Source of the DNA: Rhizobium lentis
Lineage (GTDB): Bacteria > Pseudomonadota > Alphaproteobacteria > Rhizobiales > Rhizobiaceae
Reading direction: 5' to 3'
Length of the DNA: 64,000 nt
Assembly (NCBI RefSeq): GCF_017352135.1
Contig: NZ_CP071455.1
Coordinates: 248,001-312,000 of the forward strand
The position numbers and the translations under genes were made by a program. Of the stretch, positions 8,689 through 30,109 are shown piece after piece (the stretch's first letter is position 1; the number at the start of each line of letters is the position of its first letter). A model generated the notes under the pieces. It was given only the letters and a program-made list of their open reading frames with translations. It was not told the origin of the DNA and searched no databases.

Positions 8689-8716
8689 AGTTGACCTCTT
8701 GCTCTCAACGGCAGCT

Positions 8717-8745
8717 GCTATATAATTGACTAACGCATTAGTCAA
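8717..8745 (-). promoter_or_regulatory. Promoter of the RND operon with overlapping TetR operator
   Basis: The operator is TTGACTAACGCATTAGTCAA at 8726-8745, two perfect 8-bp arms (TTGACTAA / TTAGTCAA) around 4 bases. On the reverse strand the same bases supply a -35 box (TTGACT, 8745-8740), a 17-base spacer and a -10 of TATAGC (8722-8717). A repressor on the palindrome would cover the -35 box and spacer. It lies in the 111-base gap between the adaptor gene and the divergent tetR, the usual arrangement for TetR control of an efflux operon. Confidence 0.8.
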
Positions 8746-8799
8746 TGAAAGTTTTGCCGCAGGGACGAGGGCGCGCAACGAAAGGGAGACGAGGCACGA

Positions 8800-9432: not shown

Positions 9433-9540
9433 TTGCGGGGGCAGAAAAATATGCCGATAACATAGCTTTTCCAGTTGTTATGTGAAAACACCGAGTTAGC
9501 TTATGTTGCGAAGGCAATATCTGAATTCCTGGCGGGAAAA

Positions 9541-11640: not shown

Positions 11641-11780
11641 GGCGCTCGATTCCTCCCTTGCACCTGAACCGACGCCATCGCGACTGGCCTGACCAATCTT
11701 GATGAGTTAAGCAGGACCCAAAACCATTAGATGATTTTTCTTGCCCTGCAGAAGCAAAGTGGTTCCCTTTCACCTGCTTC

Positions 11781-11793
11781 ACACTTATAGTGT
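11781..11793. promoter_or_regulatory. Short palindrome ahead of the ROK gene
   Basis: ACACT-TAT-AGTGT, perfect 5-bp arms around three bases, 20 bases before the ATG at 11813. The TATAGT within it (11786-11791) could be a -10 box. This suggests an autoregulatory operator, but a 5-bp arm can arise by chance. Confidence 0.35.
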
Positions 11794-11812
11794 AAATCAA
11801 AATGATCGGAAA

Positions 11813-12964
11813 ATGAAGTACGCTCCTTTAAACCATGTGGCCGCACATTTTTTGCGGGACGCGCATCCGGCGAGAGTAGCGTCTCGCAACGAACGGGACC
11901 TCTTGCGGTTGATCTGGAAGTCGCCCGGCATCGAACGCTCGAGCCTGACCGAACCGCTTGATCTCACCCAGCAATCGCTGCACAGAATCGTCGGGCGGCT
12001 CCATGATCGGGGAATGGTCGCCTTTTCCCAGTCGGAAAACCGACGGGCCGGTCCGCCCAGTCCAGAGCTGACGCTCCGACGGGAGTGGTGTCTGACGCTC
12101 GGCATCTCCGTCAACGTCGGCTCGATCGGCCTTTGCCTCATGGGTTTCGGTGAGCCGGTGGACAATATGGAAATTCCGCAGACGGGCTCGTCGCTGTCCG
12201 AGGAGATGGACCGGATCGAAGCGGCGGTCGAAGACATTCTTGCCCGACGCGGTGCCAAGCGGCGCGACATTCTCGGCGTCGGCCTCGCAGTCGCCGGCCA
12301 CCGCATGTTTGAAACGGCTTTCAATTGTCCCCTGCCGCTAGCCCATTGGTCTCTGATCGACCTGGCGCCCTTGCTTGGAGAGCGACTTGGCCTGCCGGTC
12401 TGGGCGGATAATGTCGCCAGGACCGCGGCTCTGGCGGAAGCCATCTTCGGCGTTGGACGTGACGTCGCCGATTTTGCCTATATCGCCCATCTTCACGGTT
12501 ATGGCGGCGGCCTGGTTTCCGGGGGCATGCCGTTTCGCGGCAGTTTCGGGAATGCCGGTGAATTCTCCGTTCTCTTCGGACGTCAGGACTACGACGATCG
12601 CCCCGCCCTCAACCAGCTGCTCGAACATCTTCGCGCCAACGGGCGCGTGGGCCTGACCCTGAGGGATCTGAAGAACGAAAATCTGGTGGATTGGGATGGC
12701 GTCGAGGAATGGATCGACCGCGTCAGTCCGGCCCACAATCGGGCCGTCAATGCGATCTGCGCGATCTTCGACCCGGCATTGATCGTGCTTGGCGGCGAGC
12801 TTCCACATTCGCTTGCGACAATGCTGATCGAACGCACCGAATTCAACAATCTCCCTCGGCATGGCGCATTGCGCGACGTTCCGGCGCTGGCCGTGGCACA
12901 GATCATCGATGCCCCCGGCGCCATCGGCGCGGCCTTGATCCCGCTCTTCGAAACCGTTTTGTGA
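11813..12964 (+). CDS. ROK-family transcriptional regulator (NagC/XylR type), degenerate kinase fold
   Basis: A 383-residue protein with an N-terminal winged helix (RDLLRLIWKSPGIERSSLTE then LTQQSLHRIVGRLHDRGMVA, about residues 28-70) and a C-terminal ROK actin-like domain (GVGLAVAGHRMF, VWADNVARTAALAEAIFG, VLGGELP near the end). The ATG at 11813 was chosen for position; the frame also opens at 11741. The zinc-binding cysteine motif and the catalytic histidine of ROK kinases are missing: the corresponding stretch reads GSFGNAGEFSVLFG. It is therefore a sugar-sensing regulator, not a kinase. Adjacent to and convergent with the pectin oligosaccharide operon, so it is one candidate for its regulator. 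Confidence 0.85.
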   Translation: MKYAPLNHVAAHFLRDAHPARVASRNERDLLRLIWKSPGIERSSLTEPLDLTQQSLHRIVGRLHDRGMVAFSQSENRRAGPPSPELTLRREWCLTLGISVNVGSIGLCLMGFGEPVDNMEIPQTGSSLSEEMDRIEAAVEDILARRGAKRRDILGVGLAVAGHRMFETAFNCPLPLAHWSLIDLAPLLGERLGLPVWADNVARTAALAEAIFGVGRDVADFAYIAHLHGYGGGLVSGGMPFRGSFGNAGEFSVLFGRQDYDDRPALNQLLEHLRANGRVGLTLRDLKNENLVDWDGVEEWIDRVSPAHNRAVNAICAIFDPALIVLGGELPHSLATMLIERTEFNNLPRHGALRDVPALAVAQIIDAPGAIGAALIPLFETVL

Positions 12965-13137: not shown

Positions 13138-14184
13138 TCACTTCATCCCTGTTCCGGCGATGCCTGTCGTGATGTATTTCTGCAGGAACAGGAAGACGAC
13201 GGTGACGGGCAGCAGGCTGAGGAAGGTCATCGCCAGGATATAGTGCCACTGCACCGAGAACTCGCCCTGGAATGCGTTCAGACCGACCTGCAGCGTGAAA
13301 TTCTCGCGGCTGTTGAGGACGATGAGCGGCCAGAGGAAGTCGTTCCAGCGCCAGAGCACCGAAAAGATCGCCAGCACCGCGAGAGCGGGCGCCGTCAGCG
13401 GCAGGATGATGCGCCAGAAGATGCAGAATTCGCTCGCCGCATCGACGCGCGCCGCCTCGATCAATTCGTCGGGAATGGTCAGCATATATTGCCGCAGCAG
13501 GAAGACGGCGGTCGGCGAGGCGATCGTCGGCAGGATGACGCCCCAGAGATTGTCCGCGAGCCCGACCCCGACGATGACGAGATAGGCCGGCACCATGACG
13601 ACGGCGAGCGGGATCATCAGCGTCGAAATGATGATGACGAAAACAGTCGTGTCGCCGCGAAACTTGTATTTCGACAGCGCGAATGCCGCCATGGCGTTGA
13701 CGATTAGCGTCAGAAGCGTCGCAACGACGGTGACGAACACCGAATTCTTGAGGAAGGTCAGGAAGTTGAAGCGCGTCAGCGGATCGGTGTAATTCTCGGT
13801 GGCGACGGTCAGGTGCTGCACCGGCGTGATCCCCTTTACGTCGACGCTGACCGGCGGCCCTGGATTTGCGGGATCGACCATCTGGGCCTTGAGACCGATG
13901 CGCCGCACCATGGCCATTTCGCGCTGCTGGCCATCGACCGTGACCTGCCAGATGCTGAGCGGCTTGTCGAAGCCGGGCACAGTCTGCTCCACCGCTGTCC
14001 GGGGGAGCAGCGACGGCGGAAAGCGCGTGATTTCGGCGGCCGGCTTCAGCGAGGAGAGGCCTGCCCAAACGACGGGGACCAGCACGGCGAGCGTGCCGCC
14101 GATCAGCCAGACCCATGACAACATATCGGTGATATCGATACGACCGGCCCGGCGCGTGCGCGAGAGAAAGCTGATCGGGTTCAT
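13138..14184 (-). CDS. Sugar ABC transporter permease, MalG type
   Basis: A 348-residue inner-membrane permease, last gene of the pectin oligosaccharide operon. It has six predicted helices and the ATPase-docking EAA loop (ELIEAARVDAASEFCIFWRI, near residue 240). It is longer than the usual 280 residues because of an approximately 70-residue periplasmic insert after the first helix (between LKPAAEITRFPPS and TRFNFLTFLKNSV), a feature I recall from alpha-glucoside-type permeases such as AglG. The ATG at 14184 follows the upstream permease stop by one base, with GGAG as ribosome site. Works with the permease, ATPase and binding protein of this locus. Confidence 0.92.
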   Translation of the reverse strand: MNPISFLSRTRRAGRIDITDMLSWVWLIGGTLAVLVPVVWAGLSSLKPAAEITRFPPSLLPRTAVEQTVPGFDKPLSIWQVTVDGQQREMAMVRRIGLKAQMVDPANPGPPVSVDVKGITPVQHLTVATENYTDPLTRFNFLTFLKNSVFVTVVATLLTLIVNAMAAFALSKYKFRGDTTVFVIIISTLMIPLAVVMVPAYLVIVGVGLADNLWGVILPTIASPTAVFLLRQYMLTIPDELIEAARVDAASEFCIFWRIILPLTAPALAVLAIFSVLWRWNDFLWPLIVLNSRENFTLQVGLNAFQGEFSVQWHYILAMTFLSLLPVTVVFLFLQKYITTGIAGTGMK

Positions 14185-14185
14185 C

Positions 14186-15172
14186 TCAGGACTCCATTCG
14201 CTTGCCCAAGCGCAGCTGTATGAGGGTGAGGACCAGAAGCACCAGCCCCATGAGAACCGATGCGGCGGAGGCAAGTCCGAAGACGCGCAGATCGCTGCCG
14301 AATGCCATCTGGTAGATATACTGGACGATGAAGCTGTTGGCCGTGCCGGGACCGCCGCCGTTCGTCAGAACCCAGGCCTCGTCGAAGATCTGCACGGACT
14401 TGATCATCAGAAGGATGAAGACGACGAGCAGGTTCGGAGCCAGCAGGGGCAGCGTGATCCTGAACAGGGTGCGCCGCGGCGAAGCGGCGTCGATGGAGGC
14501 AGCCTCGTAGAGCTCCTTCGGGATCGCCTGCAGGCCGGCGAGCAGGATCAAGGTGTAAAAACCCATATGGAACCAGACCGACACCACCACGACGAAGAAG
14601 CGCGACCAGCCCACATCGAGCAGGAAGATTTCCGGCGGCACGCCGATCATCTGGAAGAAGGCGTTCAGCAACCCGTTACGATCGAGGAACCATTTCCAGA
14701 TCAGACCGATGACGACGGGCGAGAGCAGAACGGGATAGAAGAACATCGCCCGGAAGAAGCCGCGCGCGAAGATCGCCCGATTGAGGATCAGCGCCGTGAT
14801 CAGCGCCACCAGCAATGTGGCGACGACATTGCACGCCACGAACCAGAGCGTATTCCACACCGCCGTCCAGAACAGCGATTCCTGGCAGGTTCCCGGCTGC
14901 AGGTAATTGCCGCAGGAAAGCAGGGTTCGGAAATTGTCGAAGCCGACGAAAGGCCGTTCCGAGACGAAAAGATTGGTGCCGCCGGTGAAGGCGTAACCGA
15001 CCGCGATCGCGATCGGAAGGAAGGTGAAGATGGCAAACAGAATGAGGTTCGGCGCCAGGAACATCCAGGGCATGCGCTTGCGGCCGAAAATGTGCTCGAA
15101 CGCATTCATCGGCGCTTCGACCACCCTCATCGCCGTTTCGCCCGCCTGGGAGAACAATGCACCAGCCGCCAT
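14186..15172 (-). CDS. Sugar ABC transporter permease, MalF type
   Basis: A 328-residue inner-membrane permease with six to seven helices, starting with MPWMFLAPNLILFAIF after a 34-residue cytoplasmic leader. The EAA loop is LYEAASIDAASPRRTLFRI. Two cysteines in the first periplasmic loop (SCGNYLQPGTCQ) could form a disulphide, which is uncommon in this family. It begins two bases after the ATPase stop and ends one base before the next permease. Pairs with the 13138-14184 permease to form the channel. Confidence 0.93.
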   Translation of the reverse strand: MAAGALFSQAGETAMRVVEAPMNAFEHIFGRKRMPWMFLAPNLILFAIFTFLPIAIAVGYAFTGGTNLFVSERPFVGFDNFRTLLSCGNYLQPGTCQESLFWTAVWNTLWFVACNVVATLLVALITALILNRAIFARGFFRAMFFYPVLLSPVVIGLIWKWFLDRNGLLNAFFQMIGVPPEIFLLDVGWSRFFVVVVSVWFHMGFYTLILLAGLQAIPKELYEAASIDAASPRRTLFRITLPLLAPNLLVVFILLMIKSVQIFDEAWVLTNGGGPGTANSFIVQYIYQMAFGSDLRVFGLASAASVLMGLVLLVLTLIQLRLGKRMES

Positions 15173-15174
15173 GG

Positions 15175-16268
<1,094 letters not shown>

Positions 16269-16281
<13 letters not shown>

Positions 16282-17633
16282 GCCCCACTCCCATCAGATG
16301 TCGCCGTTTCGAAGACGACGTCGTTTTCGTTCCAGCCTTGCGGCAGCGGTGCCGGCCGTGTGATCCGCACCTCGTTCATCGATATCCCGGTGACGTCGGC
16401 CACGTAGACGGCAGGCATTCCGCCGGGATAGTTCTGCAAGCCGATCACCCGGCCGTCCGAACCGCGGGTCCAGGCATTGGCCCGCCCGCCGCCATCGGCC
16501 CTCGGTGCGAGGTCGGCGTTCGTCGGACGCAGGTCATAGGTCCGCCCGGTGCCAAGCGTGCCGGCCTGCTGATCGATGGCGATACGGGCCAACGACACAT
16601 TGCGGATGCCAGAAGGTGCTGCCGCAATGACGGTGATCGCCCCTTCCATACGGCCGGTCACGTCTTCGACGATCAGGTTTTCGATGGCGCCCGCGGGGCG
16701 TTCGGCGACGCGGTCGATGACATTGACGGTCAGCGCCTCCCCTGAGCCCCAAAAACCATCCGGTGTTTCCCGGCACTCTACCGCAATCCGCGAGAACCTC
16801 ACGTTCGAGATCCGCCCGCCGTCGCGGGAGAATATGCCGAGCGCTCGGTTGGAAGCCGAGACATTGCAATCCTCGAATAAGACGTTGCTGACGTCACCAT
16901 GCGTTTCCGTGCCGATCTTCAGCGCGCAGCTCAAACTCTCAACGGAGCAACGGCGAATTAGGATGTTTTCGCATCGCCCGATGGCGACGCCTTGAGGGCC
17001 GATGCTCGTCTTCAGGCATATGCCGTCGTCGGCCGTTGATATCCTGCAATCCTCGATGACGGCGCCACGGCAGGCGTCGAGCACGATGCCGTCGGTATTG
17101 GGAAGGCGGCGATCGTTTTCGATGGTGACGTTGCGGACCGTGAGATCGGTGCAGTCGACGAAATGCAGCGTCCACATCGGCGAGCGGCTAATGGTGACGG
17201 AGCTGATCTCGACCTCGTCGCAGCCTTCGAAGACGACGACGCGGGGACGAAATTCGGCCGGGATGAAGGTTCCCACGCTTTCATCGTCGCCTGTGATGAA
17301 GTTGTCGCAGCCGGCCTCGATGCGCCCTTCCCCCGTCAGGCTGATCCGCCGCGCACCGTTAGCGACAATCATGCCGCGGTCCGATTTCTCGGCGACCACC
17401 GAAACCGTCGTATGCGCATAAGCCGCATAATCGGGGACAGGACGCAGGATCGCGCCGGCGGCAAGATGCAGATCGACGCCGGAATGCAGCCGGAGCCCCC
17501 GGCAGAGGTGGATGCCCGCCAGGAGCTCCAGGCGGCCGCCGCCGGCAACCGAAAGACTGTCGATTTCGGACTGCAGGCGGTCGGTATTGTCGCCGTCGAG
17601 CGCCTCAATCGCGACGAGGGAGGAAGCACTCAT
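16269..17633 (-). CDS. Intracellular GH28 polygalacturonase/rhamnogalacturonan hydrolase-like enzyme
   Basis: A 454-residue right-handed beta-helix glycosidase of family GH28. Two of the catalytic motifs are clear: NTDG (Asn179, Asp181) and ADDG (Asp202-Asp203), which together supply the three acidic residues. A following CALKIGTETHG stretch fits the family third motif. There is no signal peptide, so it acts in the cytoplasm on imported oligosaccharides rather than on polymer. It overlaps the GH105 gene by 4 bases upstream and the ATPase gene by 13 bases downstream. Partnership with GH105 points to rhamnogalacturonan or unsaturated galacturonan fragments as substrate; exact linkage unknown. 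Confidence 0.9.
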
Positions 17634-18724
17634 TGGCGGCGGCCACTCTCGATAAGCACTTCGGTCAGAAGCAGCATGGTCAGCGCCTGGCCGTAAGGCG
17701 TCGGCAGGTTCGGGATGCGCCGGTAGAAATCGAGATCGTGACCCATCGGCGTGCCGTCGGAAACGCCGTGGACAACGCCTTCGTCATCGATCTGCGCCAG
17801 CACCGCCGCAAGCGCGCGCTCTGCATAGACCTTGTCGCTCTCGTCGAGAATGCCGGCGTCGATGGCGCGCAATATGCCATAGGCGATGCCCGCGGTTGCC
17901 GAGGTTTCGAGTGGCGAAGCCGGGTCGTCCAGAAGCGTCGTGAACATGCCGTCCGGCCGCTGGTAAGCCTTGAGCGAACGCACCTGGCTGACGAGGACGT
18001 TCGACAGGAAACGCCGGTCCTTCTGACTGAGCGTCGGCACGAGATCGAAGAGTTCGGGGATCGCCACCGTGATCCAGGCATTGCCGCGCGCCCAGAAGGC
18101 ATTGGCGAAATTGTGCCGGCCGTTGAAGGTCCAGCCGTGATACCAAAGGCCGCTTACCGGGTCGGAAAGATAGCGAGTGTGGATTACGAACTGATAGACG
18201 GCCTCGTCAATCCAGTCGTCGCGCCCGCAGAGGACGCCGGCCTGGGCGAGGAAGAGGCAGGCCATGAACAGCGTGTCGTCCCACAATTCCCCGTCGTTGA
18301 GACGTTCCTTGACGACATGCTGGAAGCCACCATCCTCGGTCTTCGGCAGCTCCTTGACGAGCCATTCGGCCCAGTCCTCGACCAGCGCGCGAAAATCGGG
18401 ACGCTCGACATGCTGAACGAGGATCGCGAGCGGCAGCATCGGCGCCGTGCTGTTGATCTGGCGCGGCGGAATACCCCGTTCGATTTGGGCGCTGTACCAC
18501 GCAACGAGCTCCTGCAACGCCTTCTGGTCATTGGCGGATATTGCGCGGCGCAAGAATCCGTAAAGGCCGACGCCGACTTCCCAGTCCCATTCGTCGAACT
18601 GGATGCCGGAGGCGGCGCTGTCCGTGACGAGACCCTCCTTGATGCCCCGGAGTCGGCTGAAAGCCGTCGCCACGCGATCGATGGTCGTCAGGAGAGCGGC
18701 GTTGTCGACAGATGCTGTGTTCAT
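17630..18724 (-). CDS. GH105 unsaturated (rhamno)galacturonyl hydrolase, YteR-like
   Basis: A 364-residue (alpha/alpha)6-barrel enzyme of family GH105, which removes the 4,5-unsaturated galacturonyl group left by pectate or rhamnogalacturonan lyases through hydration of the double bond. Family features are GELWDDTLFM (WDD at 148-150, Asp of the active site), WYHGW and FWARGNAW. No signal peptide, so cytoplasmic. Its presence tells that the imported oligosaccharides are lyase products. It starts 16 bases after the 840-residue protein and overlaps GH28 by 4 bases, so all are one transcript. Confidence 0.93.
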   Translation of the reverse strand: MNTASVDNAALLTTIDRVATAFSRLRGIKEGLVTDSAASGIQFDEWDWEVGVGLYGFLRRAISANDQKALQELVAWYSAQIERGIPPRQINSTAPMLPLAILVQHVERPDFRALVEDWAEWLVKELPKTEDGGFQHVVKERLNDGELWDDTLFMACLFLAQAGVLCGRDDWIDEAVYQFVIHTRYLSDPVSGLWYHGWTFNGRHNFANAFWARGNAWITVAIPELFDLVPTLSQKDRRFLSNVLVSQVRSLKAYQRPDGMFTTLLDDPASPLETSATAGIAYGILRAIDAGILDESDKVYAERALAAVLAQIDDEGVVHGVSDGTPMGHDLDFYRRIPNLPTPYGQALTMLLLTEVLIESGRRQ

Positions 18725-18740
18725 GCTGGAGACCTATGTT

Positions 18741-21263
18741 TTAGGAGTAGAACGGCCCGTCAGTGCCGGCTTGGGACGCGGCGCTGTCGTGGGTGAGGAT
18801 CGGGTGCGGCTGATCATGCGTGAACGGCCGGGCCTTACCGGCGATCGAAAGACCGTCGGCATAGGAAAGAGCAATCGCCGGACCGCCTGGCGGCGTCAGA
18901 GAAAGACGCCGAAGCGCCGGATCGAAGGAGACCACCGTCTGGCACAGGCGCTCGATGAAGGCCTTGAAAGCATCGTCATTGCCGGATGCTACGATAGAAG
19001 CCCAGCCGCAGAGCGACCCATGCGATCGCGCCTCGCGGCCGGCGGTCGGGCCGTCCGTGATCAGTTCCAGGCCGTTCGACGCCCAGAGGGCGGCAAATCC
19101 CCTTCCTGACCGGGCGATCAACCATTTGTCTTCGACGATCAGATCGTCGAGACCGTCGCGGCCGATATAGGCGTGCGTCCAGGCATGCCGCGCGTCGGCT
19201 GTATCCTCGATCAGAAGGGCGACGTCACGATGCTGGGCGACACGCGGCAGGATGCCGTTGCCGGCCCAATAAGACGGTCTTTGATTGCCCCACGGGTCGT
19301 CTTCGCCCGGGTGGTTGACCCAAAGTCTCGCCATTGGATGGCCGGCAAGCCTGATATCGAGAACATGCTGCTGATGCCCCTTCCGGCCGGTCTTGTGGTC
19401 GACAACCGTCGAAAGCTGCGCGGCCTCGTTCTTGAAGAGCACGAGCTTTCCGCTCTCCAGCCCTTGGCTGTAGCGCGCCTCGACGCTTCTTCCCCGCGAA
19501 AGCGAAGCAAGCTCGGCGAGATCGGCCGGCGGCTCATAATCGCCGGCGCAGAACATGGTCAGCGCGGCGACGCCGTTGTTGAGCCAGCCCGTGCCGAAGG
19601 CGACCTGGGCGAAGGGTGCAAGCTCGGTCAGCGGGCCCGCGCGCAGTTCCTTGTCGTAGGCGCGCCCCTGTGACCCGGCCGGAACGCCGGCGAGCGTATG
19701 AAGGGCAATCATGCGGAAGATGAGATCGATCTGGCCGCGGGCGCGATCGGCGATGCCGCTTTCAGCCCAGCGCTCCAGCGCCAGCAGGCCAATGAAGTCG
19801 ATCGGGTAATAGGCCGCCGAATTCCATTCCGCCAGGCCATGCGCTTCGACGCTGTCGAACCAGCGCCCGAGCCGTTCGGCGGCGAGTTCCGCCTGCTGCC
19901 GTCCCGTCCGCCCCGAGGTCGAGAACACGTCGCCGGGCAGCAGAAGTCCGGCCAGCAGCTGGCTCGTATGGAAGCAGAGCACATGGTTCTCGCTCCAGAA
20001 CCACATCGCGTCGTTGCCCGGCTCGTCAACCCAGTATCGGTAGGAGAGAACGGAATGGCGAATGCGATCAACCGTGGCCTTGGGCATCCGGTCGCCGTAC
20101 GCGCCGAGCAGCCACAGCAGCGGCACCATGATGAAATCCGAGCAATCCTCCCGCGCATCGATGGAGGCGAGCGTCATGTCGACGATGCGATCGAAGCTTT
20201 CCTGGTCGTCATGACCGGTTTCCATCATGGCGATGAGCCGCCCGGCGCGGTTGGCGCCGAAGCGGGCGCTGTATTCTAACGCCTGGCGCTTGCGGGCGGA
20301 AAGCGACGCCGCTGCCGGCGATGGCAAGATGCTGCTCATGAAGGCGGCGTCAATGACGCGGGTGACCGAGCCCGGCCCCGACCCGATCGTCATGTGGATA
20401 CCGTGATAACCGTCGGCAATGCCGCAGACATCCTGCGCCGTCAGCCGGCTCTGACCTGCGTGGAGGGTCAGTTTCGCATCGGCGAGGACCGGCCGCTCGT
20501 GACCATGTCCGAACACCTTGAGCTCCACCGGCAGGTCGCGCTCGGGCGCCGTGTCGAAGATGATCTCCAGCGGCTCTCTGACGAAGACGTCGCGCGCCGG
20601 CCGCACGCCGCGCGAAAGGGCTTCCAGCTCCCGCACCTCGTTGTGATCGAGCGCTACCGGCAGCAGCACTGAGAGCGGCTCCTTGTCCAGCATTTCGAGC
20701 TCGAAGAACCAGGTCGTGTCGCGCTCGGCAAGATCTTCGCTATGGACGAGAATCTCGTTGTCGCCGGCTTCGAGCGGCAAAGCTATCTCGGTTGCGCTCT
20801 CGACGTTACGCTTGAAGGGCTCGAAGCGAACCGCCTCCCGCCCGTTGACCCATATGCGAACGCCGCCGCAGGTCTTGAGCGCGAGATTGAGCGCACGCGG
20901 CGCTTCCGTCCTGAAGGTGCCCTTCAGCCAACGCCTGACATGCGTGGGCACGTGCCAGAAGCTGGTGAATTCGACGCGGCGGTTCGAGCCGGGAAGATAG
21001 AGGCTTTCGGTCGGCCAGGACGTGTCGGGGATGAGCTCGCGGCCGACCATGGTCGACCAGAAGGCCTTGCGGCAGGGCAGGTCGCCGACATCGACGAAAC
21101 CGTTGATGAAACGATAGTTCACACGGTCTTCGGCGGGCGCCGGCTCGCCGGGAAAATGGCTCGCGATGAGCGCTGATACCGCCCATGCCGTTATCGTCTG
21201 CCCCTGGCCCACGCCATATGCTGGCGCCATGTCGTCCGGCTGCTTGATGCTTTCCGTTTTCAC
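18741..21263 (-). CDS. Uncharacterised 840-residue protein of the pectin oligosaccharide locus, probable carbohydrate-active enzyme
   Basis: I do not recognise a characterised family. The N-terminal ~200 residues look like beta-sandwich carbohydrate-binding or support domains (GGVRIWVNGREAVRFEPF, LEAGDNEILVHSEDLAERD). From about residue 325 to 560 the protein is helical with repeated Trp/His/Tyr-rich segments such as MWFWSENHVLCFHTSQLLAG (WSENH at 423-427) and EWNSAAYYPIDF (EWNS at 479-482), typical of (alpha/alpha) toroid lyases and hydrolases. A beta-rich C-terminal part (about 590-840) follows, as in heparinase-like lyases. No signal peptide. The GTG at 21263 was chosen because GGAGGAGG lies 8 bases before it. 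First gene of the operon, preceded by the palindrome 21287-21300. A role in rhamnogalacturonan side-chain or backbone cleavage is inference from context. Confidence 0.8.
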   Translation of the reverse strand: MKTESIKQPDDMAPAYGVGQGQTITAWAVSALIASHFPGEPAPAEDRVNYRFINGFVDVGDLPCRKAFWSTMVGRELIPDTSWPTESLYLPGSNRRVEFTSFWHVPTHVRRWLKGTFRTEAPRALNLALKTCGGVRIWVNGREAVRFEPFKRNVESATEIALPLEAGDNEILVHSEDLAERDTTWFFELEMLDKEPLSVLLPVALDHNEVRELEALSRGVRPARDVFVREPLEIIFDTAPERDLPVELKVFGHGHERPVLADAKLTLHAGQSRLTAQDVCGIADGYHGIHMTIGSGPGSVTRVIDAAFMSSILPSPAAASLSARKRQALEYSARFGANRAGRLIAMMETGHDDQESFDRIVDMTLASIDAREDCSDFIMVPLLWLLGAYGDRMPKATVDRIRHSVLSYRYWVDEPGNDAMWFWSENHVLCFHTSQLLAGLLLPGDVFSTSGRTGRQQAELAAERLGRWFDSVEAHGLAEWNSAAYYPIDFIGLLALERWAESGIADRARGQIDLIFRMIALHTLAGVPAGSQGRAYDKELRAGPLTELAPFAQVAFGTGWLNNGVAALTMFCAGDYEPPADLAELASLSRGRSVEARYSQGLESGKLVLFKNEAAQLSTVVDHKTGRKGHQQHVLDIRLAGHPMARLWVNHPGEDDPWGNQRPSYWAGNGILPRVAQHRDVALLIEDTADARHAWTHAYIGRDGLDDLIVEDKWLIARSGRGFAALWASNGLELITDGPTAGREARSHGSLCGWASIVASGNDDAFKAFIERLCQTVVSFDPALRRLSLTPPGGPAIALSYADGLSIAGKARPFTHDQPHPILTHDSAASQAGTDGPFYS

Positions 21264-21286: not shown

Positions 21287-21300
21287 TGAAAATATTTTCA
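21287..21300. promoter_or_regulatory. LacI-type palindromic operator ahead of the 840-residue gene
   Basis: TGAAAATATTTTCA, a perfect 14-bp palindrome 23 bases upstream of the GTG at 21263, between the probable promoter and the ribosome site. A near-identical copy lies at 21428-21441 before the divergent binding-protein gene. The shape fits LacI-family operators. The cognate regulator is not proven. Confidence 0.7.
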
Positions 21301-21427: not shown

Positions 21428-21441
21428 TGAAAATGTTTTCA
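21428..21441. promoter_or_regulatory. LacI-type palindromic operator ahead of the binding-protein gene
   Basis: TGAAAATGTTTTCA, one base off a perfect palindrome and one base different from the copy at 21287-21300. It ends directly before the GGGAGG ribosome site of the gene starting at 21455. Two copies 141 bases apart bracket the divergent promoters, which could allow looping. Confidence 0.7.
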
Positions 21442-21454
21442 TGGGAGGATGAAA

Positions 21455-22741
21455 ATGAAAACCTATCTATCAGGGGCTTTCGCACTGGCGCTGGCCACCG
21501 TTTCTTTCGCATGGTCGAGCGTCGCCATGGCGGAAACCCAGACGATCACCTTTCTCTTCACCGACGACGACCAGGCTTACGTCGAGCGCATGGAAGCGCT
21601 GAGCAAGGAATTCGAAACCGCGCACCCCGACATCAAGGTGAATTTCGTCTCGTCGGGCTATGATGCCGTCGCCAAGCAGCTGCCGGTGCAGCTTGCCATC
21701 GGCGAAGGTCCTGACATCGCCAAGATCACCGACTGGCAGCTCGCGCCCTATTACCTCGACATGCGCCCGCTGATGAAGGATCCGGACGGCTTCGCCAAGC
21801 TGCACGGCGACAGCCTGAACACGCTTCGCTTCCCCGGCGTCAACGATCCGAATTCGATCAACGGCTACGTCGCGTCACAGACCTTCAACCTGCCCTTCGT
21901 CAACAAGACGCTCTTCGAACAGGCGAACGAACCGCTTCCGCAGCCGACCGCCACGCTGAAGGAAATCGTCGAAGCCTCCGCCCGGGTCGCCAAGGCGACC
22001 GGCGCCCAGATCCCCTTCACGATGGACCGCTCCGGCCACCGCTTCTCGGGTGCCGCCTTCTCCTACGGCTCGAATTACGTCAAGGACGGCAAGTTCTCGT
22101 TCCCTGACGATGCCGCCAAGCGCTACATCACCGATCTCTACAACTGGACGAAGGACGGCTCTTTCCCCAAGGAAATGTGGGGTGCTGCCGGCGGAACCCA
22201 GTACAAGAACATGGGTGACGAATTCGTCAACGGCAATGTCGTGACCTATCTCGCCGGCAACTGGATGGTCAATCCGTTCCAGAAGAAGATCGGCGACGGC
22301 TTCGACTGGACGGCACTCAGCGCGCCCTGCGGCGATGCCGGCTGCTATGCTATGCCCGGCGGCACCGCGATCGTCGGTTTCAAGCGCACCAAGCACCCGG
22401 AAGCCGTGGCCGCCTTCATCGAGTTCCTCGGGTCTGAAAACATCCAGCGTGAAATCGCCGAAAACTACGTCATCCTGACCGGCGCCGACATCAAGGATCC
22501 GCAATACAAGCTCGAGAGCAAGAACGCCAAGGATGCCATGGCCGTCTTCCTCGCGGCCCGCAACAGTGCGCCGCAGGCAGCCCGCGATCTGGAACGCCTC
22601 AAGGGATCTGGGGCCATCTATCAAACGATCGTGCAGCGGATGAGCCAGCTGTTCGTCGGCGAGCTTTCCCTCGAAGAGACCTTCAAGGCCATGGCCGCAG
22701 ACGTCGACAAGGTCAACGTGACGCTCGCCGCCAACAAGTAA
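21455..22741 (+). CDS. Sugar ABC transporter substrate-binding protein (pectin oligosaccharide locus)
   Basis: A 428-residue periplasmic binding protein of the CUT1 class. Signal peptide with probable cleavage after AMA (residue 26). The mature part has the family phrases EFETAHPDIKVNFV and a C-terminal AAFIEFLGSENIQREIAENY. Of two neighbouring ATGs, 21455 was preferred because GGGAGG sits 6 bases before it, while the ATG at 21449 abuts the ribosome site. It is divergent from the operon carrying the permeases, ATPase and pectin enzymes and shares its palindrome, so it should deliver unsaturated pectic oligosaccharides to that transporter. A strong terminator follows. Confidence 0.93.
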   Translation: MKTYLSGAFALALATVSFAWSSVAMAETQTITFLFTDDDQAYVERMEALSKEFETAHPDIKVNFVSSGYDAVAKQLPVQLAIGEGPDIAKITDWQLAPYYLDMRPLMKDPDGFAKLHGDSLNTLRFPGVNDPNSINGYVASQTFNLPFVNKTLFEQANEPLPQPTATLKEIVEASARVAKATGAQIPFTMDRSGHRFSGAAFSYGSNYVKDGKFSFPDDAAKRYITDLYNWTKDGSFPKEMWGAAGGTQYKNMGDEFVNGNVVTYLAGNWMVNPFQKKIGDGFDWTALSAPCGDAGCYAMPGGTAIVGFKRTKHPEAVAAFIEFLGSENIQREIAENYVILTGADIKDPQYKLESKNAKDAMAVFLAARNSAPQAARDLERLKGSGAIYQTIVQRMSQLFVGELSLEETFKAMAADVDKVNVTLAANK

Positions 22742-22818: not shown

Positions 22819-23096
22819 GTCCATGCTTCGGCTCATCCTTCCGGCCGGCCGGTACAGCGCGGAAGAGATCGGCTTGCCGCCGACCGGCATCTCGCCGGGA
22901 CCGATGTTACCGTACAGTGGAGCGGCTTCCCCAGTATTGCGCCCGATCAAGTATATTCAGCCAGCCTTGTACATCAGGCAGAGAAGTCGTCGTGACAGGC
23001 GCCACGGGAGAGGCTATAGGCGTCGTGGTCAGTTCAAAACGCCGACACCCCGGTTACGTCAGCCGTCGATCCGTCTACCACATAGAGGTGCATTCC
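22819..23096. other. Remainder of the 355-base gap before the DUF3422 gene
   Basis: Non-coding stretch between the terminator and the DUF3422 start. The reading frame of the downstream gene is open back to 22917, but that leader does not look like protein. I see no convincing promoter boxes or palindrome. Confidence 0.5.
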
Positions 23097-24359
23097 ATGC
23101 CGATGGGTTCCGAACATCCGCTGCGCAGGGAGTTGCATAACGAGCTGCATGCGCGGCCGTCGCTTTACTTCGATGGCGATACCGACGTCTGGCATGTCGC
23201 CATCGTCGGCGACAACGGCTCGCCTCTGCTGCCGGATTCCCTTCCGGGATTGGAGGACGTCTCAACCACCCTCGGAGGCAACCACGGAATCGGCCGCTTC
23301 GGCGACGGCCGGCTGAAATGGGAGGCGCATACCGAGTTTCTAAGCCTCACCTTCGTCGCTCCGGCAGCGTCTGCGCCCGGCAGCCATCCGCCCGAGGCTT
23401 TCAAGGCCTGCTGCGACAGGATCGACGGAAAGGTGATTGCAGCCGTCCGGGTGCTGGTGCGCGACGAGAAGGACGGGCCGGCTCTCGAAAAACCCAAGCT
23501 CGACTACGTCGCCTCCAGGGTCGGCGGCGGCGATGCCGAAGTACATTCGAATTTCCGCCTGAGCGACAGCGGTTTCGTCGAATTCCTGTTCTTCAACCAC
23601 AACCTCAACGCCTATCGCACCGGCCGCATGGTCCGGCGCGTCCTCGAAATCGAGACATACAGGATGATGGCGATGCTGGCGATGCCGATGGCGCGCGAGA
23701 CGATCTCGCAGCTCTCGGCCTTCGACCGGCGCCTCGATCTGCTGATCACGCACATGCAAAGCGCCGTCAAAGTCGACAAGGCGCTGCTTTCCGAAGTGAC
23801 GAGGCTCTCCTCCGACGTCCTCAACTTCTCCGCGCTTGCGCGCCACCGCTTCGGGGCGACCAAAGCCTATGCGGAGATCGTCACCAGCCGGGTATCGGAG
23901 CTGCGCGAAGAGCGCGTCGAGCAGCGCCAGCGGATCGGCACCTTCATCGGACGACGCTTCCAGCCGGCCGTGCGTTCCGTGCATGCCGCAGAACGCCGCC
24001 TCGACGAACTCGCCGAACGGGTCAGTCTCGCCGGCGATCTGCTCAGAACCACCGTTCAGGTTCAGCTCGAGGATCAGAACGCTTCGCTGCTGACCTCGAT
24101 GGAAGAAAGGGCGCGAATCCAGGTGCATATCCAGCAGGCGGTCGAAGGCTTCTCCGTTATCGCCATCACCTATTACACCGTGGGCCTCGCCAAGATCTGC
24201 CTCGAAAGCATTACCGAGCTGGGCGTCGATCCGCATATGGCCAAGCTCGCGGTGCTTGCAGCCATCCCGCTCGTGCTCTTGGCTGTGTGGACCGCCGTTC
24301 GCCACGTTCGCAGAAGCATTGCCGGCGCCCCACACAGCCCGGTATCCGGAAATCGCTGA
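23097..24359 (+). CDS. DUF3422 family protein with C-terminal membrane anchor
   Basis: A 420-residue protein of the DUF3422 family, conserved in alphaproteobacteria and of unknown function. It begins with the family opening LRRELHNELHARPSLYF, has a central domain with FLFFNHNLNAYRTGRMVRRV, then a long helical coiled-coil section (about residues 225-345) and two membrane helices near the end (VIAITYYTVGLAKI and LAVLAAIPLVLLAVWTAV). The ATG at 23097 has AGAGGTG upstream and directly precedes the conserved opening. It lies alone between the pectin locus and a convergent MarR gene, so context gives no function. Confidence 0.85.
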   Translation: MPMGSEHPLRRELHNELHARPSLYFDGDTDVWHVAIVGDNGSPLLPDSLPGLEDVSTTLGGNHGIGRFGDGRLKWEAHTEFLSLTFVAPAASAPGSHPPEAFKACCDRIDGKVIAAVRVLVRDEKDGPALEKPKLDYVASRVGGGDAEVHSNFRLSDSGFVEFLFFNHNLNAYRTGRMVRRVLEIETYRMMAMLAMPMARETISQLSAFDRRLDLLITHMQSAVKVDKALLSEVTRLSSDVLNFSALARHRFGATKAYAEIVTSRVSELREERVEQRQRIGTFIGRRFQPAVRSVHAAERRLDELAERVSLAGDLLRTTVQVQLEDQNASLLTSMEERARIQVHIQQAVEGFSVIAITYYTVGLAKICLESITELGVDPHMAKLAVLAAIPLVLLAVWTAVRHVRRSIAGAPHSPVSGNR

Positions 24360-25531: not shown

Positions 25532-26404
25532 CTATCTTCCACCGAAACCGGAGCCCACGCTGATGCCTTTGTAGATCACCCGCTGCAGCACGATGGCCAG
25601 GATCACGCCCGGCACCATGGAGATCGTCGCACCTGCCATGATGTAATTCCACGAGGTGCCCTGCTGCGTCTGGAACAAGGTGAGCCCGAGCGGCAGCGTG
25701 GCTTTATCGAGGCCGCTGGTGGCGATCAGCGGCCAGAGAAAGCTCTTCCACTGGGCGATGAAGGTGAAGAGCGCCAAGAGGCTGATCGCCGGCATGGCGA
25801 GAGGAACGATGACCCTGACAAGGATGCGCAGCCGCGAGGCGCCGTCCATCATCGCCGCCTCGTCGAGATCCTTGGGAATGCCGAGGATGAACTGACGCAG
25901 CAGGAAGGTGCCGAACGACGAAAATGCGACCGGCAGGATCATACCGTGATAGGTGTTGATCCAGCCGAGCTTGCTGACGACGAGGAAGAGCGGGATGACC
26001 AGCATCACCTGAGGGATCATCAGCGTGCTGAGATAGGTGAGCAGCAGCCCCTCGCGGCCGGGAAACCGCAGCCTGGCGAAAGCATAGGCAGAGAGACAGG
26101 ATACCACGATGACGATCGCGGTGACGCCGCAGGCGACAATAACAGAATTCAGGAGGAAGGTGCCGAAGGGCAGCGACACCAGCGCCTCGACGAAATTGCC
26201 CCATTGGTATTCCTCGGGCAGGATGCGGACCGGCACGGCCATCACTTCGGTGTTGGAACGCACCGCGTTCGACACCATCCAGAAGAAGGGAAAGAGGAAG
26301 AGCAGCGCGACCAGCGACAATGTGGCATAGCTGACGAAGCTGCCGATCCGTCGCAGGATGCGATGTCGGGACTGGGAATGCCGTGAAGTCGCGTCATTCA
26401 TCAT
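25532..26404 (-). CDS. Sugar ABC transporter permease, MalG type (fucoside locus)
   Basis: A 290-residue inner-membrane permease with six helices and the EAA docking loop LDEAAMMDGASRLRILVRV (about residues 185-203). It overlaps the end of the upstream MalF-type gene by 11 bases. It belongs to the ABC set following the GH29 fucosidase on the same strand. No ATPase gene follows: the next gene downstream is convergent, so the system must use an ATPase encoded elsewhere. Confidence 0.92.
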   Translation of the reverse strand: MMNDATSRHSQSRHRILRRIGSFVSYATLSLVALLFLFPFFWMVSNAVRSNTEVMAVPVRILPEEYQWGNFVEALVSLPFGTFLLNSVIVACGVTAIVIVVSCLSAYAFARLRFPGREGLLLTYLSTLMIPQVMLVIPLFLVVSKLGWINTYHGMILPVAFSSFGTFLLRQFILGIPKDLDEAAMMDGASRLRILVRVIVPLAMPAISLLALFTFIAQWKSFLWPLIATSGLDKATLPLGLTLFQTQQGTSWNYIMAGATISMVPGVILAIVLQRVIYKGISVGSGFGGR

Positions 26405-27319
26405 AGTGCACCCATTTGCGCTGCATGTGGAACTGCAGGATGGTCAGGCCCATGATCATCACGAACATCACCCAGGCGAGCGCCGAGGCATAACCCATCT
26501 GGAAATTGGTGAAACCCTTCTGATAGATGGCGAAGCCGAGGGTGGCTGTTGCCGAGCCCGGACCGCCGCGCGTCATCGCGAAGATCTCGTCGAAGACCTG
26601 CAGCGAGGTGATGGCCGTCATGACCGTGGCGAAGAAGACCGTCGGCGAGATGAGCGGCAGACGGATGCGCCAGAAGCGGCGCCAGGGACCGGCGCCGTCG
26701 ATCATCGCCGCTTCAAGATAATGCTTCGGCACCAGGTCGAGCGCGGCGTTGAACATCACGACGTTATAGCCGACATTGGCCCAGAGCGTGACGAGCACGA
26801 CCGCCTGCATGGCCCAGCTCGAACTCAGCAGAAAATTCGGCAAGCCGAGGCCGAGCGAGCGGATGATGCTGTCGGCGAGCCCGTCTGGCGTGAAGATCAG
26901 CAGCCACACCACGGAGGCTGCGATCGTCGGGGTAAAGGTCGGCAGGAAGAAGATCACCCGGAAAATCGCCTTGCCGCGCTTGAGGCTCGATATCCAGACC
27001 GCGAGCGTCAGGGACACGACGATATTCAGCGCCAGATATTCGACAGCAAGAACAGCGTATTGCTCAATATGGTGTAGAAGGCCGGATCGACGGTGAAGAG
27101 CTTTATATAATTCTGGAATCCGACGAAGGACGGCGTCTTGAGCAGCTGCCAGTTGGTGAAGGAGAGCGCCAGTGACGCCAGGATCGGCAGGGCCATGAAG
27201 ATCATGAAGCCGAGGAAACTCGGCAGCAGGAATAGCATGGCCGTCTGCGTTTCAGGCTTCAGAAAGCGCCGTGGCTGACCAGGCTGCAGGCTTATTTCGG
27301 CAATGGCGCTTTCCGACAT
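26394..27319 (-). pseudogene. Sugar ABC transporter permease, MalF type, interrupted by a -1 frameshift
   Basis: Two frames together encode one permease. The first (from ATG 27319, ribosome site GGAGG) gives the N-terminal leader, the first helix region (TAMLFLLPSFLGFMIFMALP) and ends SNTLFLLSNIWR at a stop at 27026. The second gives the rest, including VWISSLKRGKAIFRVIFFLP and the EAA loop YLEAAMIDGAGPWRRFWRI, down to 26394. Reading one base back near 27040-27060 gives the expected NTLFL-AVEYLALNIVVSLTLAVW junction, so one base appears lost. There is no slippery heptamer there. Either the gene is inactive, which would cripple the transporter, or the base call is wrong. Confidence 0.8.
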
Positions 27320-27361
27320 CCCTTCCTCCATGCGCGGCAGCTCCTTCCGCCGCGCTCTAGA

Positions 27362-27460
27362 GCAATTCCAGCAAAAGCGTGCAACGGTTTTGCGTCCGGA
27401 ATTGCGTGAAAACAAAGAGATAGAGCATTTCCGTGATTCAAAGAAAAACGGAGATGCTCT
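27362..27460. repeat. Double-hairpin intergenic palindromic element (RIME-like)
   Basis: Two adjacent hairpins in the gap between the binding-protein and permease genes. The first has arms GCAATTCC (27362-27369) and GGAATTGC (27398-27405) with inner GCAAAA/TTTTGC pairing. The second has 13-base arms (27422-27434 and 27448-27460) with one mismatch. The sequence type is one I recall as a dispersed intergenic repeat in Rhizobium genomes. Inside an operon it could stabilise upstream mRNA and lower permease expression. Confidence 0.7.
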
Positions 27461-27473
27461 TGCGCGACATGCT

Positions 27474-28697
27474 CTATTGCTGCACGAGGCTCTGGATGGA
27501 CTCCATCGTCTGCCTGGCGTCGGCGCTGCCGCCGAAGGCGGGTGGGAAATATTGGTTGAAGAGATTTTCCACCGCCGCCCAATTGTTGGTGATCACATAG
27601 GGCACCGAATGCGCCAGCGAATAGTCGAGCGCCTCGCCGCCATTGGTGATGTCCTTGGCCGCCACCTTGTACCAGGAGGCTTGCGAAGCCGTGCGCGCCG
27701 GGAGCGCGCGCCCCTGTTCGGCGAGATACTGCAATGCTTCCGGACTGGTCAGCACCTGGATCGCCTTCCAGGCCGCATCCTTGTTCTTGCTCGTCGTGGA
27801 AATGCCGAAACCTGATCCCGCCGTGACGGCCGCAAGTTCCTTGGCGTCGTCACGCGGCAGCGTGGTCAGGCCGATCTTGAACTTCGCCTTGTCCTTCATG
27901 CCGATGATCGACCAGGGGCCATCGACATACATGGCGACATTGCCCGAGTTGAAGCGACCCTGGATAACCGTGCCGACATCGGCGCTCGACGGCACCAGCG
28001 GCGCGACCTTGTCCTTGGCGGCAAAGCCGATCACCCTTTCGGCAGCGGCAATGGCGCTTGGATTGGTAAGGTCGAGTTCCCCGGCGTCGTTCACGTATTT
28101 GTCGCCCCAGGCCGAGGCCAGGACCGAATAGTTCTGTGGGGTGATGCCGAAGCCGTACTTGCCGTCCTTCGTCAGCTTCTTGGCGGCATCGGTAAACTCG
28201 GCGAGCGTCCAGCCCGGTTTCGGCAAGGGAATGCCGGCAGCTTGGATCGCGTCCACGTTATAATAGATGACCCACGGACCGACGTCATAAGGCAAGCCGT
28301 AAAGCTGCTTGTCGACGGACATGCCGCCGATGATCGAAGGGGTAAAGGCCCCGATATCGAACTTGTCGGCGGCGATGCGGTCGTTCAGCGGCTCGAGCAG
28401 CGAATAGAAGTTCGGCATGCGCAGCGACTGCATGGACACGATGTCGGCAAGCTGGCCGGACGCCGCCAGCACCGGCAGCCGCGTCCAGTAGTCGACCCAG
28501 CCCGTCGTCGTCAGCGTCACCTTGATATCGGGATATTTGGCAGTCACCATATCGGCCAGGTGCTGCCAGCTCTTGGTGTCGGCCTCCGAACCGGTCCACA
28601 TCTGCCAGGTCAGGTTGACCTGCTCGGCCGAAGCGGATGTGGCAAAGAGGCTTCCGCCGATTGCGGCGAGCAAAAGCGTTTTCTTCAGAACCTTCAT
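27474..28697 (-). CDS. Sugar ABC transporter substrate-binding protein (fucoside locus)
   Basis: A 407-residue periplasmic binding protein. Signal peptide cleaved after SASA (residue 24). The mature part starts EQVNLTWQMWTGSEADTKSW and has the family phrases TAKYPDIKVTLTTTG and PGWTLAEFTDAAKKL. The ATG at 28697 has GGAGGAGAAACCC before it; the frame is open for 11 more codons upstream. It follows the fucosidase gene by 49 bases and precedes the frameshifted permease. Its ligand is presumably a fucose-containing oligosaccharide, inferred from the neighbour. Confidence 0.93.
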   Translation of the reverse strand: MKVLKKTLLLAAIGGSLFATSASAEQVNLTWQMWTGSEADTKSWQHLADMVTAKYPDIKVTLTTTGWVDYWTRLPVLAASGQLADIVSMQSLRMPNFYSLLEPLNDRIAADKFDIGAFTPSIIGGMSVDKQLYGLPYDVGPWVIYYNVDAIQAAGIPLPKPGWTLAEFTDAAKKLTKDGKYGFGITPQNYSVLASAWGDKYVNDAGELDLTNPSAIAAAERVIGFAAKDKVAPLVPSSADVGTVIQGRFNSGNVAMYVDGPWSIIGMKDKAKFKIGLTTLPRDDAKELAAVTAGSGFGISTTSKNKDAAWKAIQVLTSPEALQYLAEQGRALPARTASQASWYKVAAKDITNGGEALDYSLAHSVPYVITNNWAAVENLFNQYFPPAFGGSADARQTMESIQSLVQQ

Positions 28698-28746
28698 GGG
28701 TTTCTCCTCCCTCCATGACGCAATGAACACGCGAATGGGACCGAGT

Positions 28747-30072
28747 TCATGCCTTGAGGATGATCTCGATCACCGGGACGGTAACGTCCGGTCGCCGGAC
28801 CGGCAGCTCGAGCATGACCATGCCTTCCGGCACCATCACGCCGACATTGGGATCCACATCCCTGGTGTGGGTGAGCCAGCGCACTTCGCTGGCGTCATGC
28901 AGGAACTGCACATAGGCGATCCTGCCGGCGATGCCCTCGATGTGGATGTGGCGGTAAGGCCAGTTATAAACATGCAGATACAGTCGGTTGCCCCGCTGGG
29001 TGTAGCGGCAGCCGGCCGGTGCCGGAAGTTCGGACGGACCGGCTCCATAGATGGAGCGCGCGTTGACGGCCATCCAGTTCTGGTAGACCTCGAGCGCGGC
29101 GATGGCGCGCGCATCGAACGTGCCCCGCCCGGTCGGGCCGACATTCATGAGGAGGTTGCCGCCGAGCGCAACGGAATCGATCAGCAGCTGGATGATCTGT
29201 TCCGGGCTCTTCCAGCTATCCTCGTCACGGTGATAGCCCCAGGAGCCACTGAAAGTGTGGCAGGCTTCCCAGAGCACCCCTTGGCTCGCGATGGCGGGCG
29301 CCACGCGTGGCGTATATTGCTCCGGCGTGGTTATGTCGGGCAAAATTCCCGGCGGCAGATCGAGGCGGTTGTTGATGATGATTTCGGGCTGCAGCTCGCG
29401 CGCCAGTTCGACCAGCCGCTCGCTCTCCCAGTCTGCGCGCCCCTTGCCGGGCAGGCCGCGATATTCGCGGGCGGGCCCGGGATAGCTGAAATCGAACCAG
29501 ATAATGTCGACGCGACCGAAGCCGGTCAGAAGCTCGCGCACCTGTTCGCGCATATAGGCCGCATAGTTGGCAACGTTGCGGCCGGCATTCAGCGCCTTGG
29601 CTTCGGGATGGTTGCGCAAGGGATGGTGAAGGTCGATCGGGAAATCCGGATGATGCCAGTCGAGCAGCGAATAATAGAAGCCGATCTTCAACCCCTCGGC
29701 GCGGAAGGCCTCGACCAGCGGCGTCAGCAGATCCCGGCCGCAGGGGGTGTTCGGCGCCTTGTAGTCGGTGACCTTGCTGTCCCAAAGGCAGAAACCCTCG
29801 TGATGCTTGGTCGTCACCACGACATATTTCATGCCGGCGAGACGGGCGCGACGCGCCCATTCCTTGGGATCGTAGAGGTCGGGATCGAAATTGTCGAAAT
29901 AGCGCTGGTAATGGTCGTCGCTCAGCTCTTCGCGGTTCTTCAACCACTCGTGCCGGGCTCCAAGAGCATAAAGGCCCCAATGGATGAACATACCGAGGCG
30001 GTCATAGCTGAACCAGGCGTGCTTACCCGCCCCCGATGCCGAATTCTCCGGCAGGCGCTCCGAACTCGTCAC
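28747..30072 (-). CDS. GH29 alpha-L-fucosidase, cytoplasmic
   Basis: A 441-residue family GH29 enzyme that releases L-fucose from glycosides by a retaining mechanism. Signature parts are the opening WFSYDRLGMFIHWGLYA, the TTKHHEGFCLWDS segment, and the nucleophile region IIWFDFSYPG (Asp194). A C-terminal beta-sandwich follows from about residue 340. The GTG at 30072 was taken as start because GGGAGGAG lies 7 bases upstream. No signal peptide, so it acts on imported fucosides such as plant xyloglucan, arabinogalactan or pectin side-chain fragments. First gene of the operon with the binding protein and permeases, under the operator at 30110-30121. No fucose-metabolism genes are nearby. Confidence 0.93.
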   Translation of the reverse strand: MTSSERLPENSASGAGKHAWFSYDRLGMFIHWGLYALGARHEWLKNREELSDDHYQRYFDNFDPDLYDPKEWARRARLAGMKYVVVTTKHHEGFCLWDSKVTDYKAPNTPCGRDLLTPLVEAFRAEGLKIGFYYSLLDWHHPDFPIDLHHPLRNHPEAKALNAGRNVANYAAYMREQVRELLTGFGRVDIIWFDFSYPGPAREYRGLPGKGRADWESERLVELARELQPEIIINNRLDLPPGILPDITTPEQYTPRVAPAIASQGVLWEACHTFSGSWGYHRDEDSWKSPEQIIQLLIDSVALGGNLLMNVGPTGRGTFDARAIAALEVYQNWMAVNARSIYGAGPSELPAPAGCRYTQRGNRLYLHVYNWPYRHIHIEGIAGRIAYVQFLHDASEVRWLTHTRDVDPNVGVMVPEGMVMLELPVRRPDVTVPVIEIILKA

Positions 30073-30109
30073 AGGTTTCTCCTCCCTGTTTTCCGGTTCC
30101 ACGTCATGT

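Follow-up and report, generated by a model that had tools for sequence, protein, structure and literature searches.

A GH105-linked protein family in Rhizobium lentis as a candidate cytoplasmic uronate dehydratase

Introduction

GH105 enzymes act on unsaturated uronyl ends. The closest described systems include uronate dehydratases of the GH154/DUF2264 family such as BcGDH and BT_3677, which are built on an (alpha/alpha) toroid and frequently have a GH88 or GH105 neighbour (PMC12269599). BcGDH was identified as a glucuronate dehydratase by assay, mutants and a crystal structure, and N176/N177/W178, Y229, R285 and Y289 are among the residues used (PMC12269599). In the lyase families PL35, PL8, 12, 15, 17, 21, 23 and 39, an antiparallel beta domain comes after the toroid (PMC12269599). 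In this study we analyzed a stretch of 64,000 nucleotides (the window) from Rhizobium lentis, contig NZ_CP071455.1, positions 248,001 to 312,000. It encodes an unnamed protein of 840 residues, here called X, which is followed by a GH105 gene and whose residues are numbered with the GTG start as 1. That enzymes with an (alpha/alpha) toroid carry out uronate elimination is known, and for the X family and its coupling to GH105 we found no description in the titles and abstracts of the open PMC papers that our searches listed.

Linkage of X to GH105

We tentatively propose, at just short of an even chance, that X is a cytoplasmic uronate dehydratase which makes the delta-4,5 end for GH105. This role is suggested by the bond to GH105 together with a motif parallel to GH154. 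In 76 of 80 loci taken from genome contigs, the next gene downstream of X, on its own strand, encodes GH105. The remaining four are a locus at a contig end (L079) and three from Chelativorans, among them L091, which is cut about 550 bases behind X; all three Chelativorans genomes encode a PF07470 protein elsewhere. Among more distant loci (25-42% identity), GH105 was found within the stretch in ten of twelve and not in the other two. Moreover, two proteins among the matches listed, P0087 and P0109, are fusions of X and GH105.

The association also holds at the level of genomes. Among 398 genomes sampled from the phylum, PF07470 was detected at E <= 0.001 in all nine genomes with X and in 35 of the 389 without it (Fisher 1.1e-9); above the family cut-off it was present in 30 of the 389 (Fisher 3.4e-10). 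The nine X-bearing genomes are not independent, as four come from the family of the window and three from another. Within the window's family alone, PF07470 was found in 4/4 genomes with X and in 0/13 without.

Predicted fold

The AlphaFold2 model of X (mean predicted local distance difference test score, pLDDT, 86.3; predicted template modelling score, pTM, 0.88) begins with two beta-sandwiches, the first of them PA14/GH2-like, and continues with an (alpha/alpha) toroid and, at the C-terminus, a beta domain. It bears out the initial annotation, which had described a beta-sandwich N-terminus, a helical core and a beta-rich C-terminus, and, like the toroid lyases, it has an antiparallel beta domain behind the toroid. 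In the structure prediction and fold search which that annotation had proposed, toroid and beta domain (residues 317-808) aligned with PL17 as a single unit and with PL35, heparinase III and hyaluronate lyases almost as such; all of these alignments are loose (5.4-6.2 A). Hyaluronate lyase we take to be PL8, heparinase III PL12, Dp0100 PL39 and the endoglucanase 1is9 GH8. Dermatan sulfate epimerase aligned likewise (human epimerase 1, 6hzn, 8% identity to X), so that the layout is common to an epimerase, too. The best matches of the modelled two-domain core are, loosely, enzymes of uronate elimination: PL17, PL35, dermatan sulfate epimerase and PL8. Foldseek with the whole model was uninformative for the core, as the 50 matches listed contained GH2 and other beta-sandwich proteins at TM scores of 0.09-0.16. 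With the toroid alone it gave no match at E <= 0.001, and rows such as intrinsic factor and 14-3-3 are noise.

The alignment with 6hzn raises the question of an oligosaccharide uronate C5-epimerase. We regard this as very improbable, since there is no known need for such an enzyme ahead of GH105, KduI and KduD, whose own substrate residue has no C5 configuration.

For the toroid alone, an endoglucanase and GH105 were tied as structural matches. Many toroids are hydrolases, the N-terminal sandwich is like those of GH2-type enzymes, and three invariant acids near the same helix starts make a glycoside hydrolase (e.g. uronidase or rhamnosidase) possible, with D373, E425 or E479 as acid/base. Nevertheless, we consider this unlikely. 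Lyases rank first for the full two-domain core, the invariant set of N-H, Y and R-x-Y has its parallel in elimination enzymes, and an essential glutamate is also present in the lyase BcPL35 (PMC12269599). In addition, a GH105 partner would be superfluous for a hydrolase of saturated uronates.

Conserved residues and comparison with known enzymes

Conservation was examined in two overlapping alignments, A2 with 37 diverse sequences and A7 with 54 sequences for the toroid (Table 1). The motifs WSENH (423-427) and EWNS (479-482) had been placed correctly by the initial annotation. According to DSSP the three motifs of the toroid lie at or just before helix starts, and from the alternation of helices we infer that these are inner toroid helices. 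N426 and Y485 are 59 residues apart, followed by R534 after another 49 residues and then by Y536. In the beta domain H633 occurs in 31/37 sequences of A2 and H630 in 13/37, so that H630 is not conserved. Among the relatives aligned, the same active-site set was found in haloarchaea, Firmicutes, Chloroflexota and other groups.

Similar stations occur in GH154, where N, Y and R...Y follow each other in equal order and with matching spacing, and the letters agree only in part. GH154 has NN-W, Y229 and R285-x3-Y289; at the analogous places X has E-N-H, Y and R-x-Y, which is not an identical set. In X, Y485 is likely the catalytic tyrosine. BcGDH is a chain of 400 residues, whereas X adds the N-terminal sandwiches and the C-terminal beta domain. 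Sequence homology between X and GH154 was not detected by profile comparison: PF10022 did not match X at E <= 1, and hhalign against a narrow nine-row DUF2264 alignment gave a probability of 0.8% for the 37-row A2 and of 0.4% for A1. From sequence, the relation of X to GH154 is a parallel in layout and not membership. A DUF2264 protein of the genus does belong to the GH154/BcGDH family (9o4u, E 7e-27), and its stations are NNW 158-160, DHY 209-211, R261 and Y265, as retained from that family; in the host genome a DUF2264 protein of this family is encoded at C1:1900261-1901274.

P29_PDnc, an ulvan oligosaccharide dehydratase that we compared by its description, also dehydrates a non-reducing-end uronate to feed GH105, as proposed here for X (PMC12269599). 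In contrast to what we propose for X, its catalysis is described to involve aspartate D248, an arginine and lysine K303 and not a tyrosine (PMC8511951). X could represent an additional family of oligosaccharide uronate dehydratases that is independent of GH154/BcGDH and P29_PDnc and uses the two-domain architecture of lyases. GH105 would be its partner in a dehydrate-then-hydrolyse pair, by which saturated uronates would be removed with no need for a uronidase. We consider this possible and hold it with some reserve.

The same architecture raises the possibility that X is an oligosaccharide lyase of a new family within the cell. By beta-elimination it would then cut oligosaccharides imported from homogalacturonan or rhamnogalacturonan and leave a delta-4,5 uronate for GH105. 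The layout of X is that of the toroid lyases named above, and pectin fits the GH28 and GH105 partners. PL17 exo-oligoalginate lyases such as Alg17c share toroid and beta domain with X over an alignment of 423 residues, act on substrates of oligosaccharide scale and have a His-Tyr gap in the toroid of 56 residues (58 in X); they differ in that identity is 8% without a sequence match and X has two extra N-terminal sandwiches. PL35 chondroitinases and GAGases (9o3q, 8khw) show 10-12% identity to X and likewise no sequence match. In BcPL35, the toroid residues E228 and Y232 as well as H387 and Y413 are conserved, and no activity was detectable in the mutants E228A, H387A and Y413A (PMC12269599). 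These residues parallel the invariant E479 and Y485 of the toroid and H697 and Q631 of the beta domain in X, although any counterpart there of the essential H387 and Y413 is putative. In our view this parallel aids the lyase, weakens the hydrolase and leaves the ranking of the readings unchanged. Since both BcGDH and BcPL35 offer parallels, the residues of X fit elimination better than they discriminate a dehydratase from a lyase.

The beta domain and the PL35 parallel place the lyase close behind the dehydratase, though on balance we find it doubtful. An exolyase would give unsaturated monomers for which no GH105 is needed, yet GH105 is nearly always present. Two relatives lie beside tripartite ATP-independent periplasmic (TRAP) importers, which suit very small substrates. 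Moreover, hhalign against a narrow seven-row heparinase II/III alignment gave 0.1%, and no likeness in sequence to toroid lyases (PL8, 12, 15, 17, 21, 23, 35, 39) was found with PF07940/Pfam or the solved members. A search for PF14683 (PL4-type) had no match anywhere, controls included, and is therefore uninformative. We prefer dehydration on several grounds: the GH105 partnership is tight, the stations resemble those of GH154, and some relatives lie next to importers that suit very small substrates, with no other depolymerase seen among their neighbours. Accordingly, the lyase-like idea of the initial annotation stands in part: among the matches listed, the core is nearest to toroid lyases with an antiparallel beta domain, and the dehydratase, which had not been named, is preferred.

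Several observations weigh against a dehydratase. The closest rows for the full model are PL17 and PL35. A paralogue of X in the host itself (L094, C1:4035607-4037949, about 32% identity) has no GH105 and lies between a LacI-type gene and an ATP-binding cassette (ABC) importer. Its surroundings, with an Opp-type importer further upstream and UxuA about 7 kb away, suggest a glucuronate-related role for this paralogue. The haloarchaeal relative L104 is flanked by oxidoreductases, and in a search of its 620-kb plasmid no GH88 or GH105 was found. With respect to the annotation of L094, the open reading frame (ORF) at 8422-9594 of this locus is on the wrong strand, with the LacI-type gene on the other.

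Proposed reaction and neighbouring pathway genes

For the dehydratase we infer the following reaction, substrate and residue roles. Small uronate oligosaccharides, once imported, would undergo a beta-elimination by X at the uronic acid of their non-reducing end. Base and acid would be Y485, with the help of R534, and Y536, and the carboxylate would be handled by N426/H427 and R534. The loss of H-5 and of the free 4-OH as water would turn the saturated end into a delta-4,5-unsaturated one. GH105, encoded by the next gene, would then hydrolyse the unsaturated residue to 5-keto-4-deoxyuronate, which KduI and KduD would convert onward to 2-keto-3-deoxygluconate (KDG). GH28 and the rhamnose genes near one relative (L105) suggest galacturonate-rhamnose (GalA-Rha) or oligogalacturonate as the substrate, and glucuronate (GlcA) may be a further option.

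KduI and KduD were sought around L094, L096, L098 and L102-L105, in the first three of these among the submitted ORFs only; L095, L097 and L099-L101 were checked for the genes of the window operon alone. Among relatives of about 30% identity, L102 adjoins KduI and an ABC importer; L103 adjoins KduI, KduD and a TRAP importer; L096 adjoins a short-chain dehydrogenase/reductase (SDR) and KduI; and L098 adjoins an SDR, a TRAP importer and a PfkB kinase. The L105 relative (38% identity) has GH105, an ABC importer, KduI and KduD, with rhamnose catabolism upstream. The X operon of the window is without KduI, and a KduI of the host is on another contig. PF04962 has three matches in the host, the third of which (L136) was counted as KduI. 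The other two, including the strongest, were rejected as they do not match the KduI of the relatives; they may be IolB.

If the proposal holds, a function could be assigned to a large family that our searches matched to no model of Pfam, NCBIfam or PHROG. The proposal would also account for the removal of saturated uronic acids from fragments of pectin in symbiotic Rhizobium and in plant-associated Agrobacterium relatives, whose GH105 alone acts on unsaturated ones. Judging from the GH154 case (PMC12269599), such pairs of dehydratase and hydrolase may occur widely under mistaken glycosidase annotations.

Sequence family

As the initial annotation had stated, X is not matched to a known family: Pfam, NCBIfam and PHROGs gave no match at E <= 1. 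Against sequences of the PDB, X alone had a single chance-level match (E 1.3), and the sole match of the A1 profile below E 0.01 was RsgI3, within the N-terminal sandwich, with nothing past residue 300. For seven distant relatives, Pfam gave weak PA14-type, galactose-binding-type and unrelated stretches only, and NCBIfam gave none.

A protein search with X (7990 candidates scored) retrieved 492 homologues at E <= 0.001; among the 120 listed, many carry a name, which is 'hypothetical' for most of the named ones; three names are heparinase-like or rhamnosidase-like, and two entries bear PA14 labels. A haloarchaeal relative as query (7999 candidates scored) gave 1074 matches, which may overlap with the 492 of X. 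Some of those listed (120) have names that indicate haloarchaea, Firmicutes, Chloroflexota and Armatimonadota; most have about 620-680 residues, and the aligned ones are without the N-terminal sandwiches. Long and short forms are homologous, as a search with the short P0208 retrieves proteins from Rhizobium with E values of about 1e-23 to 1e-27. Another short-form member, P0223, bears GNAT acetyltransferase domains, and GNAT genes also occur near the haloarchaeal copy L104 (4940-8491).

Operon and regulation

The window lies on the 877-kb contig C2 of a 6.4-Mb genome with 100% completeness. The 840-residue ORF of the initial annotation was confirmed on the minus strand as the first gene of a GH105-GH28-ABC operon; on the plus strand stops interrupt the reading frame. 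It is not a chance ORF, because matches were found in 199 plasmid records, 118 of which encode X at 80-95% identity, and because of the 492 homologues. The GTG start is preceded by GGAGGAGG, and in Rhizobium etli CFN 42 the annotated orthologue has the equal length of 2523 bases. Both points oppose an alternative ATG 24 bases upstream, which would yield 848 residues and was rejected.

All operon genes are on the minus strand in the order X, GH105, GH28, ABC ATPase and two permeases. A gap of 16 bases separates X from GH105, GH105 and GH28 overlap by 4 bases, and GH28 also overlaps the ATPase gene. The nearest solved relatives of the GH28 protein are 5olp and 3jur, the latter an exo-polygalacturonosidase. 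X is probably cytoplasmic, judging from its N-terminus, in which no clear signal peptide was seen, in line with the initial annotation. By a crude measure with a small margin, its peak 12-residue mean hydrophobicity within the first 45 residues is 1.76 (residues 23-34), compared with 2.07 and 2.19 for two secreted binding proteins, 1.05 for GH105 and 1.47 for GH28.

Table 1. Positions of X, its domains and conserved residues, and of neighbouring features in the window
Feature	Position	Strand	Remarks
X, unnamed 840-residue protein, first operon gene	18741..21263	-	GTG start
PA14 / GH2 sugar-binding-like beta-sandwich, X residues about 15-200	20664..21221	-	
(alpha/alpha) toroid, X residues 313-593	19485..20327	-	Toroid-only AlphaFold2 model pLDDT 90.9, pTM 0.91; VIA-align
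C-terminal beta domain, X residues about 593-827	18783..19487	-	DSSP of full model
D373-C374, invariant	20142..20147	-	54/54 (A7), 37/37 (A2)
E425-N426-H427, station 1, helix start	19983..19991	-	54/54 (A7), 37/37 (A2)
E479 ... Y485-Y486, station 2	19806..19829	-	E479, Y485: 54/54, 37/37; Y486: 47/54, 26/37
R534-A-Y536, station 3	19656..19664	-	R534, Y536: 54/54, 37/37
Q631, beta domain, invariant	19371..19373	-	37/37 (A2)
H697, beta domain, invariant	19173..19175	-	37/37 (A2)
GH105 unsaturated uronyl hydrolase family protein	17630..18724	-	PF07470 E 9e-98; 3qwt (putative GH105) E 7e-87
GH28, PglB-type polygalacturonase	16269..17633	-	PF00295; NCBIfam PglB
ABC importer ATPase, UgpC/MalK type	15175..16281	-	Library match and R. 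etli annotation
ABC importer permease	14186..15172	-	
ABC importer permease	13138..14184	-	Length from R. etli annotation
Divergent sugar-binding protein, signal-peptide-like N-terminus	21449..22741	+	PF01547/PF13416
Candidate operator, perfect 14-bp palindrome TGAAAATATTTTCA	21287..21300		Between X and binding-protein gene
Candidate operator, second copy TGAAAATGTTTTCA	21428..21441		Between X and binding-protein gene
ROK regulator, candidate palindrome binder	11741..12964	+	PF00480

The four strand matches of the two palindromes (TGAAAATNTTTTCA) were reached in 0 of 100 shuffles. When 77 related loci were scanned for a looser form, 59 had it at most 330 bases upstream of X, with at least two copies in 42, and it was absent from the remaining 1.396 Mb of these loci; three of the 80 loci, shorter than 17 kb, were left out of this count. 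The palindromes are likely the operator of a regulon. Thus one regulator is probably common to X, its operon and the binding protein of the importer.

The GH105 protein of the window carries the NCBIfam name 'beta-galactosidase BglB'. This name merits a recheck, because LacZ contamination was suspected behind the apparent beta-galactosidase activity of GH154 preparations and GH154 members were doubted as hydrolases (PMC12269599). Besides, the minus-strand ORF at 9496-10542 is probably on the wrong strand, as the corresponding place in R. etli is taken by a LacI gene on the opposite one. A DUF3422 protein at 22917-24359 (+) is a neighbour in R. etli CFN 42, too. At 25532-30102 (-) lies a separate cluster in which an alpha-L-fucosidase (GH29) is encoded along with ABC permeases and a sugar-binding protein; the gene of a LacI regulator is at 30278-31285.
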